Source: Prototheca cutis
Taxonomy: Eukaryota > Chlorophyta > Trebouxiophyceae > Chlorellales > Chlorellaceae
Assembly: GCA_002897115.2 (NCBI GenBank)
Contig: BCIH01000011.1
Coordinates: 93,472-157,471 of the forward strand
DNA: 64,000 nt
Direction: 5' to 3'
Positions 53,506-60,398 of this stretch are shown here, in pieces. Each line of letters starts with the position of its first letter. Position 1 is the stretch's first letter. Position numbers and translations under genes: made by a program. The notes under the pieces were generated by a model that had not been told where the DNA came from, ran no database searches, and worked only from the letters and a program-made list of their open reading frames with translations.

Positions 53506-55091
53506 CTCTCTCAGGCTGCCAAGCTCAAGGAGACGGCCTCGTACAAGAGTGGGCGACTGGGCGCCGCATTGACCGAGGCGTACCGAGCCATCGACGAAGA
53601 CCTGAGCGGACCCGAGGGCTGGGCGGAGCTGGAGGAGATTCTCGCGCCGAAGAAGGGGTAAGAAAGTGATTGTGTGTGTTTTGAGGTTTAGGGGGCACGG
53701 GCCCGACTGGGGGTGGCGGGCCAGCCATCACCCCGGCCCACTTCTTCACAGGAACGAGAATCCTCCCCACACACAAAAAGAGAAAATAGAAAGGCACATA
53801 AAAGCACACACACCACCCACCTTGCAGGGCTCAGGTGTCATTGTTTGGGGACGTGGACCCGGCCATCGGAGAGAGCCTGGGCAGTGATGGCATTGAGGGT
53901 TCCGAGGGCAGCGCCGGGTCGGCGGGATCAGGGGTTCCGGCGGGTGGCCGGCGCCCTCGGCCCGATTCGGCCCGTGGGCTGAGCAAGACCCGGAGCAGCA
54001 GCGAGTTCCTGGCCAGCCACCTCCAGCGCGCGAGCATCGTGCCGGCGTCGCTGACTGCGAACCGGTCCCAGGACAGCCAGGAGTCGCCACTGGGCCTCTT
54101 CAACATGCCTGGCATCGGCGGCGACGGGGATAGTGGTGCGGAGGCGGCGGCACCCGACGGCGAAGCGCCCGTGGATCGCGCTGCAGACTCCACCACAGAN
54201 ACCGACGACGTGGCCGAAGCGCTGTTTGGCACGCACCCCGGCCTGACTGAACCCAGCTCTGCGGATGCCGAGACGCCCGGCGACGACTCGGGTCGGGCCA
54301 AGGCATACGGCTCTGGGTGCACGGCGATTTCGGCACTGATCCGCCCCGGGCGGCTGGTCGTGGCCAACACAGGCGACTCGCGGGGCGTGCTGTCACGCCG
54401 CGGTGTGGCCATCGCGCTGAGCCTGGACCACAAGCCCATCTTGTTCGAGGAAGCGCGGCGCATCATCCGCGCGGGTGGGTTTGTCCGTGACAACCGCATC
54501 AACGGCTCGCTCAACGTCAGCCGCGCTCTCGGCGACCTCGACTTTAAGCGCAACACCGCCCTGCCCCACACCGAACAGATGGCAAGTTGACTTGTTGGGG
54601 GGGGTAAGGGGGTTTGCCTGAATTGCTCCTGCCTCCTGTTGGATGATTGCATGCATGCATGCATGCCCGAACCCACTTGACGGCGTGCATTGCCCCAAAA
54701 CAAGCAAACAAGGTCTCACCGGCTCACTCACCCACCAACTAATCCACTCACACAGGTCATTTCCACACCCGACATCGAGACGGTGTCGCTGGCTGATGGC
54801 GATGAGTTTTTGATCCTGGCGTGCGACGGCATCTGGGACGTGATGAGCAACCAGGAGGCGGTGGACTTTGTGCGTCGACGGATCAAGTCGGGCACGAGCC
54901 TGCAGCACATTGCCGAGGCGGTGTGCGACGCGTGCCTGGCACCCGACCTCACGGGCATGTGCCGCGGCGCGGACAACATGTCGGTCATCATCGTCCTCTT
55001 CCGCAAGACCGCGCACCTGGACAGCGTCTGGGACCGCATGTGGACGTCCATGTGGAACCCACGTAGCCACAGCACCCGCAACGGCAGGTAG
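52790..55091 (+). CDS. PP2C phosphatase, PPM1G-like, Ser/Gly-rich insert (copy 2)
   Basis: This is a second PP2C of the same subfamily in direct tandem with copy 1. The N-terminus MGQYLSAPVTDK again gives a possible myristoylated Gly. Motifs: [67 protein letters not shown], then a Ser/Gly/Ala-rich insert (about 53830-54290) unlike the acidic insert of copy 1. The second half has [64 protein letters not shown] and [13 protein letters not shown]. Cys in the usual GDSRC is Gly here, but the metal-binding Asp residues are kept. The C-terminus is short and the stop is at 55089-55091. One intron ends in a CA-CT microsatellite directly before the acceptor. Confidence 0.92.
53463..53512 (+). repeat. 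(CA)n(CT)n tract at a 3' splice site
   Basis: Forty bases of CA then about ten of CT, followed immediately by CAG and the exon starting at 53515 of PPM1G-like copy 2. Confidence 0.95.
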
Positions 55092-55786
55092 CGTGTGCGC
55101 GTGGGAGTGTCNTGTGCATCGTGCGCACCGGCGGTCCTCAGGAGTTTGTGACCCCGGTGGTCGAACCGCACCCGCCGGCTGAACCGCACCTGCCGGCCAC
55201 CCGCCGAACAATCGCGTTGATCGATCGCGCTGACAACACCTCCCCCCGGGGTCCCGAGATGGGACCCCACACATGGTGGATGCCCGAGGCTGCCGCTTTT
55301 TCGATGCACACACCCGCGTCCAAGCGATGCCTTTTATACTCGGGCCGGGACCTGTCGGCGTGCACCCTTTCCATGCTGCGTTTTTGCCCCGAAACCCAGG
55401 CCAAAAGTATGCGCGCAGATGTGGGACCCAGTTGTCTGAGCAGTCATGCTCCCGACCGCGAGTCCCCAGCCACCCAAATTGGCGGTGGATGGTTCTGGAC
55501 GTTGCGTCGAGGCTCGAGGCTGCGGGAGACGCTCCACGCCGCACTGCGTTCGCTCTGCTGGCCTCACAGTCCTGCAACGCCGTCTGTATACTATGCGTGT
55601 TTGCCGGGAGCCTCGAACCCCTGTGCCCGTGTCCGTGAGTTGCCCCGTAACCCTTGTCGATGTTCGCGGCTGACCACCACAGCAGGGGAATGGCGTTTCG
55701 GAAAGCAGTGGAGGGAACAGCGTCCCACAGGTTGTCCAGCGTGAAGAAATGCAGGAGAAAGCCCAACGTCCCCTGGGTGCAGAAGG
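55092..55786. other. Intergenic region with an exon-like minus-strand ORF
   Basis: No gene is firmly supported. A minus-strand open stretch at about 55664-55770 reads FLLHFFTLDNLWDAVPSTAF and is flanked by a possible acceptor (CACCCAG) and donor (GTTACG), so it could be one exon of an unrecognised gene or a remnant. Confidence 0.3.
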
Positions 55787-55800
55787 AAAAACAGCCAAAA
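55787..55800 (-). terminator. Pol III-type T tracts after the permuted tRNA gene
   Basis: On the minus strand, TTTT (55797-55800) and TTTTT (55787-55791) follow the end of the 5' half of the tRNA by about 8 and 17 nt, as expected for RNA polymerase III termination. Confidence 0.6.
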
Positions 55801-55808
55801 GGTAGGGA

Positions 55809-55902
55809 TCAAAGTCTCATGTGCTAGGCCACTGCACCATACGCTCGCAAGTTGGAAGCCCGAAAGCAGAGCGTACAGGGGTTCGAACCCTGGTCTTGAG
55901 AT
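55809..55902 (-). tRNA. Circularly permuted tRNA-Gln(UUG) gene
   Basis: On the minus strand the 3' half comes first (55902 down to 55868) and the 5' half second (55846 down to 55809), joined by a 22-nt segment counting the discriminator base. Rejoined in tRNA order the parts form a full cloverleaf of about 72 nt. The acceptor stem is GAGCGTA/TACGCTC (7 of 7 pairs). The D stem is GTGC/GCAC with loop AGTGGCCTA. The anticodon stem is TGAGA/TCTCA (5 of 5). The anticodon loop is CTTTGAA with anticodon TTG. The variable loop is AGAC. The T stem is CAGGG/CCCTG with loop TTCGAAC. The discriminator is T, as usual in eukaryotic tRNA-Gln. The break falls in the anticodon loop next to position 37, the normal intron site. 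T tracts follow the 5' half. No CCA is encoded. A conventional reading in either direction gives no cloverleaf. Confidence 0.88.
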
Positions 55903-56429
55903 TAATTTACCCTGGGTCAACTCGTCAATCCAAAAGTGATTTAAAGTCGGTTTTTGTAACGCCATCGTAGATGCTCAGGCCGGAAATTGGTGTCACGATC
56001 TTGGGATTCAACCCCACCATTCGCGCACGTTGAAAGGTAGATCCAGAAATGCTTCAGGGGGTGCGGGCTGGCCGGTCGGTGGACCTTTCACCGAGCGGCT
56101 CAGCGGGAAGGCTGGCGGCCCGGAAGGGGCTACCTCGCCTTAGCGAGAAAAATCAAACTGGGCAGATGCCTTTGAGGGCCTGCCAGATGATTTGCGTGCA
56201 GCGTTCAATCATGTCCCTTGGTTGTTCTGGTGCTGCTGTTTGGTCGAGAATTGTGAGGACACCTTGGGCGGCAGCCAGTGCCTGCAGTACGCAGCTTAGA
56301 CGGCGGCGAGGAGCTGTGCACGGGCTGAACCCTCGGCTGCACGGGCTTGCTCCATTCCCGGTGCTCGCAGCGCAGGGAAAAGGATCTGTATATTTTCCAA
56401 AGAGGTGGGATCAAGCGGTCCTGCGAGCC
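55903..56429. promoter_or_regulatory. Upstream region of the permuted tRNA and ITPase genes
   Basis: About 530 bp lie between the minus-strand tRNA gene and the plus-strand ITPase start. No further RNA or protein gene was recognised. Confidence 0.35.
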
Positions 56430-57862
56430 ATGGCGTCCACGAACCAGGGGTCCACGGCCCCAGCGGTCAGCTTCACCACGGGCAACAAGAATAAACTCAG
56501 CGAGGTGACCAGAGGGGACTCGGGGAGCACTCTCTTGGCCTGTGCCCGGCTGGGACCAGACTTGCAGTGATTGGATTGACATAGCAAACGCGCGTTGCTG
56601 TCCATGGCGCACAGGTCATTGCCATTCTGGAGGAGCAGGGCCAACTGCCGTTCACCGTTGTGGCAGCGGACGTGGATCTGCCAGAGTTGCAGGTCTGTGA
56701 ACGAGCCAAGCTGTGCACACTGACTTGGAATGGGCTAGGATGTGGGTGCAATGTTGATGCACAGCAAGTGCATGCATCCGTAGGGCGAGGAAAGCTGCAA
56801 GATGTGAGTCTCGGCCATAGCACAACAGTTGCCCATACCCGAACGCAGGGGGAGCCCGACGACATTGCCCGGGAGAAATGCCGGCGAGCAGCAGATGTTG
56901 TTCGTGGCCCCGGTGAGCACGATGCAAATGCTGCTCCCGGCAGTGACAAGCGCTCCATGGAATGCATCACTCTCACCACTGCGTTGAGGTCCACTGCTGG
57001 GTTCCTGCCCGATGCTGCATGGATCTGGTTGGCTAGGCGCCCTTTCCACACCCACATCCACAACCAAACCCACGCCCGAAATCCGTGCAGTCTTTGTAGA
57101 GGACACGTGCCTGTGCTTTGAGGCCTACAAGGGTCTGCCTGGCCCCTACTGCAAGTGGTTCCTGTCCAAGGTCGGGCTCGATGGCCTGAACAAGATGCTG
57201 GATGGGTTTGAAGACAAGTCGGCATATGCGCTGTGCACCTTTGCATTCAGCCTGGGTGAGCGGGCGAGCATTGGGTTTCTTGTGTGTATCCTTGAGGGGC
57301 CATTGGAGGATTTGGGGGGGGGGGGGGGGGGGGGGGGCAGGCGACTGCCGCACCATGCACGGAGATGATGTGCCAGGGGTCGAATGGGAGTCCCGAGGTC
57401 CCTCAGTTGTTCAGCCATGCGAACGGCCCGAGCACGCAAGCATCGGCATACTCATGCACCAATGTCCTGCAGGACCAGGACACGAGCCTGAGGTGTTCAG
57501 TGGGCGCACAGATGGCCGGATAGTGCCGGCGAGGGGTGCACAGAACTTTGGCTGGGATCCCGTGTTCGAGCCCACCGGGTTTGACCAGGTGAGTCAGCGC
57601 GCATATCAAGGGTGTGTGTGCACGTGTGCGTGGGGGCCACATGAGTGGCCGGATGGGCAGGGGCCCTCCGATAGCGGGATCCCGGGCTGTCCTCTCGCGT
57701 TGTCCAGCTTCAACGACGACGTTGTCAAGCTCGCTTCTGTGACCGCGGACATTGCAGACATATGCGGAGATGGACAAAAGCACCAAGAACAGCATCTCGC
57801 ACCGGAGGCGGGCGCTGGACAAGCTTCGCCAGCGGCTGGTCGAGATTTACGAGTCCCAGTAA
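56430..57862 (+). CDS. Inosine triphosphate pyrophosphatase (ITPA/HAM1)
   Basis: ITPase hydrolyses ITP, dITP and XTP to monophosphates and cleans the nucleotide pool. The start [20 protein letters not shown] leads into the substrate-binding motif [11 protein letters not shown]. Next exons give [20 protein letters not shown] and [24 protein letters not shown], then [20 protein letters not shown] joined in phase across an intron. [18 protein letters not shown] follows. The late motif [15 protein letters not shown] is intact. The C-terminus is [20 protein letters not shown] with a stop at 57860-57862. The order and residues match human ITPA closely. One intron contains a 24-G run. Confidence 0.95.
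57314..57337 (+). repeat. Intronic poly-G tract
   Basis: A run of 24 G in an intron of the ITPase gene. Confidence 0.95.
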
Positions 57863-58636
57863 CTTCCCCGTTCCACAATCCAGAGCATGCAAATCTCCCA
57901 GCGGGAACATCATCACCTCTGTCTCGGTCGGGGATGATGCTGGGCGGGATGTCTGCATAAGTCTTGGGCGCAAATGCACTGCTGGCATCAGAGGGACACG
58001 TGTGTGCCTGGCGACATTGCCACCGCAGGCGTGCTAGAACCCCTCACAGGATGACTGTGCTGAGCCATTGTTGCTGCCCTCCAGATCGAAAAATTGTCCT
58101 CATCTCAACCAGAGGATCGCGAGTTCCTATCTCCCCCCGTTGGCCCTTGCCGTGGCATCCACGATGCTCTCGCCTGTCGCAACCTTATAGCTTGATCACA
58201 TCACCTCATGCAAAACTCGCGGGGCGTTGGAAAGAGAGGGCAAGCTGCAGGGCCGCTACAGGCATGCAGCATAAAACTCCAGAAAAGGCGGAAGGACACC
58301 GAGTTCGGTGTCAGCGCGAACCGACGGAGCGGGATGAACACTAATGACAGAGGTGGATGTCAGAAAATTCGTATCGGGGTTCAAGTTCAGAAACAGGTGT
58401 TTCCTCTCGATTTTCAGGGCCATCAAGACTCATGCAGCACCAGGGGTGTGTCTGGGATGTGCATTTGGTCTGGCCAACCTGTGAGTGGCTGGCAGTCCAC
58501 GTTGGAGCACTCGGGATGGAGAAGTCCGGGGAAAAAGGGGTTGTGTGCTAATTGCCAGGGGGGGAGAATGCCTGACTTCTCAAAGAAGTGGACGGCCTCG
58601 ACAGAACACCCGTCGCCTCCTTGGCCCAGGCCAGGT
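57863..58636. other. Convergent intergenic region
   Basis: 3' flanks of ITPase (+) and the hexose transporter (-). A long plus-strand open frame begins at 58208 and runs antisense through the transporter; it is judged a composition artefact. Confidence 0.45.
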
Positions 58637-60398
58637 TCACTCCTCGTCCTTGGGCTTGCCGTCCACAGCAGCACGCTGGGCGGCGGCGGCGTTGCGCGAG
58701 GCCGTGCGCGTGGCGTCGCGCTGGATGATCTCCAGGGCGCTTGGGCCCATGACCCTGGACCAGAGACCGTGGCGGGCAAACATGACCGGCACGCGCTCCA
58801 CGGGCACGCCCTTGGTCTCGGGGATCAGCCAGTAAGCAAAGGCCGTCATGACGATGATCCATGCTGCGAAGAAGAGGAACACGCCCCACTTCATGGCGCA
58901 CAGCATGGACAGGAAGGACTGGCCNANGACAAAGGAGAACAGGAAGTTGGCGGCCACGGCGATGGACATGCCNGCGGCACGCGTCTCCAGGGTGTGGATC
59001 TCGGAGGGCACCAGCCAGCCCATGGGGCCCCAGGACCAGGCAAAGGAGGAGATGTAGACGCAGATGACCACCAGCACGCCNATGGCAGTGCCNGANGGCA
59101 GCTTGCCGTCGTCGTACTTGCCGAACTGGGTGGCCAGCACGATGCCGACCACCACCTGGGAGACGAACATCTGAGCACCGGCCTCCAGCAGGAAGAAGCG
59201 NCGGCCAAACTTGTCCACNAGCAGCACCGCCACCATGGTGGAAGCGGAGTTGATGCAGTTGATGATGATGGTGTTCAGCAGGGAGGTCTTGCGGCTGGAG
59301 CCCAGNGAGTTGAACAGCACCGGCACGTAGAACATGATGGCGTTGATACCGGTGAACTGCTGGAAGAACTGNATGATGATGTCGATGATCAGCTGGGGGG
59401 TGTTGGCGCGGGTGAACATGAAGGAGTAGGACTGGCGCAGGGTGACGCGCTCGGCTTCCTCGGTGGCCTCGATCAGGTCGTACATCTCGGCCTCCACGTC
59501 GTCGCAGCCGCGCAGGCGGCGCAGGTTGGCGCGACCCTTCTCCACCTGCCCGCGCTCGATCAGGGAGTTGGGGGACTCGGGCAGCACGATGGAGCCGACG
59601 AAGAGAACCATGGCGATGCCGCCGGCGATTGCCAGGCTGATGCGCCAGCCGTCCTCGAGATCCTGGGTGCCGTAGTTGACCAGACCAGCCACCAGGATGC
59701 CAAAGGTGACGGCGAACTGGAACAGGATGTTCAGACCACCGCGGTACTTGGCGGGCGCGACCTCGGACAGGTACATGGGCACAGCGGTGTTGGCAAAGCC
59801 CACGCCAAAGCCCAGGATCGTGCGGCCGACGAAGAGCATGCCCAGGGCGACGGCGCCAGCCTGCAGGCCGGCACCGATCATGAACATGATGGAGGCAGCC
59901 ATCATGGTGGGCAGCCGGCCGAACTTGCGGCAGGTGGTGGCTGCGAAGAGAGAGGAGAACATGCCTGCCAGGAACATGGTGGAGGTGAAGGTCTGCAGAA
60001 CCTGGTTGTCGTACTTGCAGTAGGGGCTGGTGTCGCTCACACCGGCCTCCGTGCGTTCGTAGACCTCCGGGAAGAACTTCTGCTGGAAGGATGCCATCGC
60101 CGTCACGCCACCAGTGACACCCTGCGAGGGGGGGGAGGATCGCCAACATCAATTTCAGATGAAGACACGTGAAACTGCCCGGCTCGCACGTTCCAACGGG
60201 AGTGGGTCGGCATACGAAGATCTTCATCTTAATCCGCCGGCACCCGCTCAACAGCCTTTCACAACGTACAATGTCGTAGCCAAAAAGTAGGCCACCGCAA
60301 GCAGCCATGATGGCCACAGCGACAACATAGCCGGTGAGACGGCCGTTGTATTCGGCGGCGTTGGCACCAGCGGCGCCAGAGAGACCACCGCCCGCCAT
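58637..60398 (-). CDS. Proton/hexose symporter, HUP family (MFS sugar transporter)
   Basis: The product closely resembles Chlorella HUP1-3 plasma-membrane H+/hexose symporters. Two exons: 60270-60398 ([20 protein letters not shown] to GGLLFGYDI) and 58637-60130 or so (GVTGGV onward). The total is about 537 residues, close to the 534 of HUP1. Sugar-porter motifs are all visible: [15 protein letters not shown] (PESPR/R-G region), [52 protein letters not shown] (sugar-binding QQ), [18 protein letters not shown] and [15 protein letters not shown] (PETKG). The intron interrupts GYDI/GVTGG, the end of TM1, with GTACGT donor and CGCAG acceptor. Ten ambiguous bases lie at 58925-59372, almost all at third codon positions. 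The cytosolic tail is Ala-rich and ends KPKDEE. Confidence 0.96.

Follow-up and report, generated by a model that had tools for sequence, protein, structure and literature searches.

The tRNA-Gln(UUG) locus

The window analysed here is a 64-kb stretch of DNA (positions 1-64000, about 60% G+C), and on its minus strand, from 55902 down to 55809, lie the two halves of a tRNA-Gln(UUG) in swapped order, with positions 38-73 read first and positions 1-37 after them (Table 1). The initial annotation, made from the sequence of this region, had placed the 3' half upstream of the 5' half on the minus strand, and direct reading bears this out to the base. It had also claimed perfect stems of 7, 4, 5 and 5 bp, a TTG anticodon and a discriminator T; once the halves are returned to mature order our scanner counts 21 of 21 stem pairs (7 acceptor, 4 D, 5 anticodon and 5 T), and both the anticodon and the discriminator can be read. 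The Gln anticodon, the 4-base variable loop and the discriminator T are features that this gene has in common with the two Gln(CTG) genes of the same genome. CCA is not encoded at the end of the 3' half (55868..55902), and the interval 55600-56150 contains no ambiguous bases.

Table 1. Features of the tRNA-Gln(UUG) locus and its neighbours, minus-strand features in order of reading
Feature	Position	Strand	Basis or remark
TATA-like TTTAAA, 43 bases upstream of the 3' half (-43)	55940..55945	-	sequence
Leader part of the proposed bulge-helix-bulge	55903..55913	-	sequence, pairing count
3' half of tRNA-Gln(UUG), positions 38-73	55868..55902	-	sequence, scanner, covariance model match
A38	55902	-	sequence
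Anticodon 3' strand TCTCA	55901-55897	-	sequence
Variable loop AGAC, 4 bases	55896-55893	-	sequence
T arm CAGGG-TTCGAAC-CCCTG	55892-55876	-	sequence
Acceptor 3' strand TACGCTC	55875-55869	-	sequence
Discriminator T	55868	-	sequence
21-base spacer joining the two acceptor strands, without TTTT	55847..55867	-	sequence
5' half of tRNA-Gln(UUG), positions 1-37	55809..55846	-	sequence, scanner
Acceptor 5' strand GAGCGTA	55846-55840	-	sequence; then T8 G9
D arm GTGC-AGTGGCCTA-GCAC	55837-55821	-	sequence
A26	55820	-	sequence
Anticodon 5' strand TGAGA	55819-55815	-	sequence
Loop part CTTTGA	55814-55809	-	anticodon TTG at 55812-55810
Trailer part of the proposed bulge-helix-bulge: U(+1), then CCCU (+2 to +5)	55804..55808	-	sequence, fold, pairing count
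T-runs TTTT 55800-55797 (from +9) and TTTTT 55791-55787	55787..55800	-	sequence; probable terminator
PP2C phosphatase, PF00481 matches	53835-54590 and 54690-55091	+	profile match
Ham1-type protein, PF01725 match	57202-57960	+	profile match

The whole anticodon loop reads CTTTGAA and is split as CTTTGA/A, which puts the junction between positions 37 and 38 and makes the gene type II; the exact cut is our inference, since the trailer T that follows position 37 could equally complete a 7-base loop. The spacer between the acceptor strands, at 21 bases, falls within the range of 1-74 in the table of a review of permuted tRNA genes (PMC3978253).

In mature order the minimum free energy fold is the cloverleaf, at -24.5 kcal/mol (z -2.0), with 6 of 200 shuffles equal or better. 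The 116-nt stretch in genomic order is of ordinary stability (z -0.94, with 36 of 200 shuffles as good), and its minimum free energy fold retains the tRNA stems. ARAGORN calls Gln (ttg) from the rotated sequence and makes no call in genomic order. A covariance model for the permuted arrangement matches 55809-55902 at 56.8 bits, a score to be read with the gene itself among the seeds of the model.

Chance expectation and standard searches

The scanner for the permuted order requires T8, A14, the D-loop GG, T33 and a TTCRA core, places no requirement on the anticodon and covers type II junctions only. Across the 64-kb window the tRNA-Gln(UUG) locus is its sole match with at least 20 pairs, and the one other match in the window, with 19 pairs, is the same site in a different register. 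No match with 20 or more pairs arose in 300 first-order shuffles of 64 kb (four had 19 pairs), nor in 1250 shuffles of 64 kb amounting to 80 Mb (12 had 19 pairs).

Neither ARAGORN with default settings nor Rfam at its gathering threshold reports a tRNA anywhere in the window, and Rfam at a relaxed threshold reports none within 40000-64000. Four weak Rfam matches in that interval were rejected; the best, GlsR20, reaches 27.5 bits where the gathering score is 100. When ARAGORN is allowed introns of up to 500 nt it draws a Gly (tcc) with a 466-nt intron spanning the locus, which we take to be a spurious chance join; a Lys (ttt) call with a 499-nt intron and a Gly (gcc) call with a 235-nt intron between two adjoining permuted genes were rejected as chance joins as well. 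The initial annotation had expected standard tRNA searches to miss or mis-score the gene.

Permuted and ordinary tRNA genes in the assembly

A permuted-aware search of the locus and of the genome, as the initial annotation had proposed, recovered the locus and counted 40 permuted genes. The genome is represented by a 19.9 Mb, 23-contig assembly, and our census of it, made by T-arm and D-arm patterns together with reading of the sites, is partial, so that the counts of permuted and ordinary genes are lower bounds. At least 40 distinct type II permuted genes with 26 anticodons were found by the scanner, 26 of them with 21 pairs and 14 with 20, matches with fewer than 20 pairs being left out of the count. 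They comprise Gln (TTG, CTG x2), Ala (AGC x3, TGC, CGC x2), Gly (TCC, CCC, GCC x4), Glu (CTC x4), Pro (TGG), Ser (TGA, CGA), Ile (AAT x2, TAT), Thr (AGT x2), Leu (AAG, TAA), Arg (TCT, CCG, TCG), Val (TAC, CAC x2), Tyr, Asn (x2), Cys and His. Ordinary tRNA genes number at least 17 with 10 anticodons, as found by an Rfam tRNA search of the assembly in which 63 of 246 candidates were scored. Ten of these have no intron (Lys CTT x2, Arg ACG x2, Arg CCT, Phe, a Met with the initiator's A54, and Leu CAG x3), and seven have one (Asp x3, Pro AGG x2, Pro CGG and Leu CAA). Not one anticodon is common to the two sets. Among four sub-threshold Rfam matches, three are pieces of permuted genes (Ala AGC, Gly TCC and Ala TGC).

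Once rotated, all 40 permuted genes are given their expected isotype by ARAGORN, which calls none of the 40 in genomic order; the former figure is no independent proof, because the scanner had already selected for good cloverleaves. In the one T-arm set that was inspected in full, the 97 of 97 GGTTCGANYCC sites (80 for a control pattern), there are 23 permuted and 13 ordinary genes. About 68 of 88 GGTTCAANYCC sites were inspected, representing 67 distinct contexts, with 20 GGTTCAACCCC sites left out. Of the AGTTCRANYCT sites, 18 of 47 were inspected. The 12 D-arm sites of the form TAGCTCAGTNGGTAGAGC (none for the control), all inspected, divide into 7 permuted and 5 ordinary genes. A second D-arm pattern, TGGCGCAGTGGTAGCGC with 3 mismatches, ran near background at 149 sites versus 125 for its control, and among the sites listed some led to the Ala(CGC) and Cys genes.

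The covariance model, seeded with five permuted genes and seven rotated ordinary tRNAs, recovers permuted genes from outside the seed set as well, among them Thr (E 1e-19), Pro TGG (9e-19) and Ile AAT (2e-18), the E-values being rough. In a search covering 95 of 117 sources its matches at or below 28.0 bits came for the most part from pieces of ordinary genes, such as those at L023, L032 and L035; the model alone cannot part weak permuted genes from ordinary pieces, so the figure of 40 is taken from the scanner. Nine plant tRNAs run as one DNA query returned only the two known Lys genes. Absent from this partial census in both forms are Trp, elongator Met, Lys(TTT), Glu(TTC), Ser(GCT, AGA), Leu(TAG), Val(AAC) and Thr(TGT, CGT), isotypes that may have different T arms or junction types outside a type II scanner.

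At L101 (G000:C13:121800-123000) two permuted Gly(GCC) genes share a strand at a distance of about 316 bases, so that a 5' half precedes the 3' half of its neighbour; this may capture a stage in the interconversion of permuted and ordinary forms through tandem duplication. At L113 (G000:C10:42000-43100) a permuted Gln(CTG) gene on the plus strand and a permuted Thr(AGT) gene on the minus strand lie tail to tail, about 150 bases apart. Two odd tRNA-like stretches were also seen with ARAGORN, one at L019 1419-1557, to which the program assigns an improbable anticodon and an intron of 59 nt, and one at L097 360-428 with an undefined anticodon.

Flanking signals and a proposed bulge-helix-bulge

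The sequences on either side of the tRNA-Gln(UUG) gene could form a relaxed bulge-helix-bulge with its anticodon loop. Leader AAA (-6 to -4) can pair with U33-U35 and U-7 with G36, and leader AGGG (-11 to -8) can pair with the trailer CCCU in a 4-pair outer helix. Three of the four central pairs are available at the expected offset, with position 32 unpaired, and the fold program favours a different register. The set of permuted genes allows a broader count of the pairing between positions 32-35 and leader -3 to -6, which we take from work on yeast and archaea to be the helix between the two splicing-endonuclease cuts. Over the 40 genes 100 of 160 cells are paired, against a mean of 77.9 and a maximum of 94 in 10,000 shuffles of the leaders. 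When each anticodon is represented by a single gene, the count is 69 of 104 against 52.8 expected, a value that none of 10,000 shuffles reached. The excess peaks at the expected offset, with a smaller excess one step off. At least 3 of the 4 pairs are available in half of the genes (20 of 40) and fewer than 3 in the other 20.

The T-runs that follow the 5' half are, to judge from the sequence, a probable RNA polymerase III terminator. A TTTT starts no more than 20 bases past position 37 in every one of the 40 permuted genes, compared with 323 of 8198 control windows, and 39 of the 40 spacers contain no TTTT. The permuted Arg(TCG) gene at L111 (G000:C18:100500-101400) does have a TTTT within its spacer, which might halt RNA polymerase III ahead of the 5' half. 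TATA-like words such as the one upstream of tRNA-Gln(UUG) occur at -45 to -30 in 12 of the 40 permuted genes; this is a minority, and also the most frequent bin, the other bins scanned holding 0 to 6 of 40. Among ordinary genes 2 of 17 have such a word at -45 to -30.

Alternative explanations

Three other readings of the locus have to be weighed, of which a chance resemblance or an assembly artefact is much the least credible. The assembly is imperfect, as the 44 ambiguous bases in the window attest, but none of these falls in 55600-56150, no match of 20 pairs or better came out of 80 Mb of shuffled sequence, and 40 places in all show this build with a terminator; we give this reading next to no weight. 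A dead relic is a more substantial alternative. If an ordinary tRNA-Gln gene had been duplicated in tandem and the outer halves then lost, the halves left behind would stand in the order observed, and tandem permuted copies do exist, as the neighbouring Gly(GCC) genes on G000:C13 demonstrate. Such a remnant would be unexpressed, with UUG decoded via another gene, yet all four stems here are intact, a T-run follows, no second Gln(UUG) gene was detected and 39 more genes have a like build. We therefore regard it as quite improbable that the locus is a relic of this kind.

It is also unlikely, if a little less so, that the locus is real while most of the tRNA comes from an ordinary tRNA-Gln(UUG) gene that lies outside the assembly or escaped detection. 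Room for such a gene is left by the partial nature of the census, by the 63 of 246 candidates that Rfam scored and by the ten or so expected anticodons that are absent in both forms. The ordinary gene against which the initial annotation had weighed its own reading was nonetheless sought through 19.9 Mb, and none was detected. Mature-order queries for Gln(UUG) and Gln(CUG) matched three places in the assembly, in a search whose first step is coarse enough that a diverged copy could escape it. The Gln(UUG) query matched its own locus in two pieces, query 1-38 and query 38-74; the other two places are the Gln(CUG) loci, both permuted. At none of the 97 of 97 sites with the B-box form of tRNA-Gln(UUG) did ARAGORN, with introns of up to 500 nt, call an ordinary Gln gene.

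The claim of a circularly permuted tRNA-Gln(UUG) gene is supported, then, by the anatomy of the locus, the T-run, the junction, the 39 sister genes and the lack of a detected ordinary copy. On this sequence-based evidence we consider it very probable that the locus is a working nuclear type II (37/38) permuted gene, with no other gene for tRNA-Gln(UUG) detected.

Host and neighbourhood

The gene is flanked by plus-strand frames for a PP2C phosphatase and a Ham1-type protein, and a minus-strand frame that overlaps it, 55591-55965, has no Pfam match. A hexose transporter frame in the window (58637-60106) has its best named matches in Auxenochlorella, at 81-83% identity for this one gene; several of the ambiguous bases in the window fall inside it. 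The chlorophyll a/b-binding family PF00504 has no match in the 19.9 Mb and was detected in a Synechococcus control. The host is probably a colourless relative of Auxenochlorella, namely Prototheca, a suggestion drawn from one protein and one family. The genus Prototheca includes opportunistic pathogens of animals.

Processing model and comparison with known systems

With the halves swapped, the cell presumably must circularise the transcript and then recut it to obtain a working tRNA. RNA polymerase III would transcribe the leader, 3' half, spacer, 5' half and trailer as a single RNA, in which the leader, trailer and anticodon loop would form the relaxed bulge-helix-bulge. The Sen splicing endonuclease would cut at this structure and tRNA ligase would seal position 37 to position 38, giving a circle from which RNase P and tRNase Z would excise the spacer at the acceptor stem, with CCA then added. 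Transcription, cutting, the circle, the order of processing and use in translation are all proposed here by analogy with other algae as reviewed in PMC3978253.

The closest precedent is Auxenochlorella UTEX 250-A, from the sister genus in the same algal family, where Craig et al. 2025 (PMC12636532) describe nuclear tRNA halves in reverse order, found after tRNAscan-SE had given an incomplete set. Since those permuted genes are published, both the kind of gene and the algal family are already known. The suggestion that this locus would extend permuted genes to a Chlorella-type alga needs two corrections: permuted genes of the group are already in print (PMC12636532), and the host is likelier a colourless Prototheca than a green Chlorella. 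In the open-access literature, with most subscription journals outside the search, we found no other report of permuted tRNA genes from Prototheca, Chlorella or Trebouxiophyceae besides Auxenochlorella. What looks new is the host, if it is Prototheca, and the permuted share of the tRNA set.

Permuted tRNA genes have so far been rare: the 2014 review PMC3978253 gives 34 in six algae and one archaeon, with at most 11 per genome. The nuclear genes of green algae from 2010 work tabulated there resemble ours in their 37/38 junctions, short spacers (11-64) and unencoded CCA, and have a relaxed bulge-helix-bulge of the kind proposed here, but number 3 to 6 per genome with none for Gln in that table, whereas here there are 40 with spacers of 9-80. 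Cyanidioschyzon merolae has a type II permuted Gln(CTG) gene with a 31-base spacer (Soma et al. 2007, via PMC3978253), and the table of the review includes this gene and lists no Gln(TTG). In that alga both the circle intermediate and aminoacylation were demonstrated (Soma et al. 2007, via PMC3978253). The two genomes differ in that 11 of 43 C. merolae genes are permuted, with four junction types (PMC3978253), whereas 40 of 40 here are type II as found by a scanner for type II only. The tRNA-Ser genes of chlorarachniophyte nucleomorphs (PMC3978253; PMC4494063) are likewise of green-algal origin with a 37/38 junction; unlike the genes described here, they belong to a relict nucleus and amount to two Ser genes in B. 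natans and in A. amoebiformis. The P. wickerhamii genome, at 16.7 Mb, is reported to have 64 tRNA genes by tRNAscan with all isotypes but selenocysteine (PMC7941945), and the P. bovis draft 122 tRNAs (PMC12424370); if these are ordinary genes, the two counts are in tension with a permuted majority here.

On the counts found, 40 against 17, we think it likely that most nuclear tRNA genes of this genome are permuted and that no detected anticodon is served by both kinds, in which case 26 of the 36 detected anticodons would depend on circularisation by the splicing machinery. If so, permutation is the default format of tRNA genes here and the formation of RNA circles is obligate for translation in a colourless alga. 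Permuted genes outnumbering the ordinary ones found would show that the format can turn dominant and essential. They would also supply tens of natural substrates with which to gauge the demands that a eukaryotic splicing endonuclease makes on a bulge-helix-bulge. The result is a warning, too, that ordinary programs leave the tRNA annotation of this group of algae incomplete: ARAGORN recognised none of the 40 in genomic order. The catalytic domain of the tRNA endonuclease, PF01974, matches at two loci (56.9 and 43.7 bits), whose frames resemble Sen2 and Sen34 in their motifs. The reading by RNA polymerase III of genes with A and B boxes in reverse order also becomes testable, and for the TFIIIC B-block domain (PF04182) there is a single weak match of 25 bits at G000:C2:400199-400315, in a search that also yields matches in bacteria.
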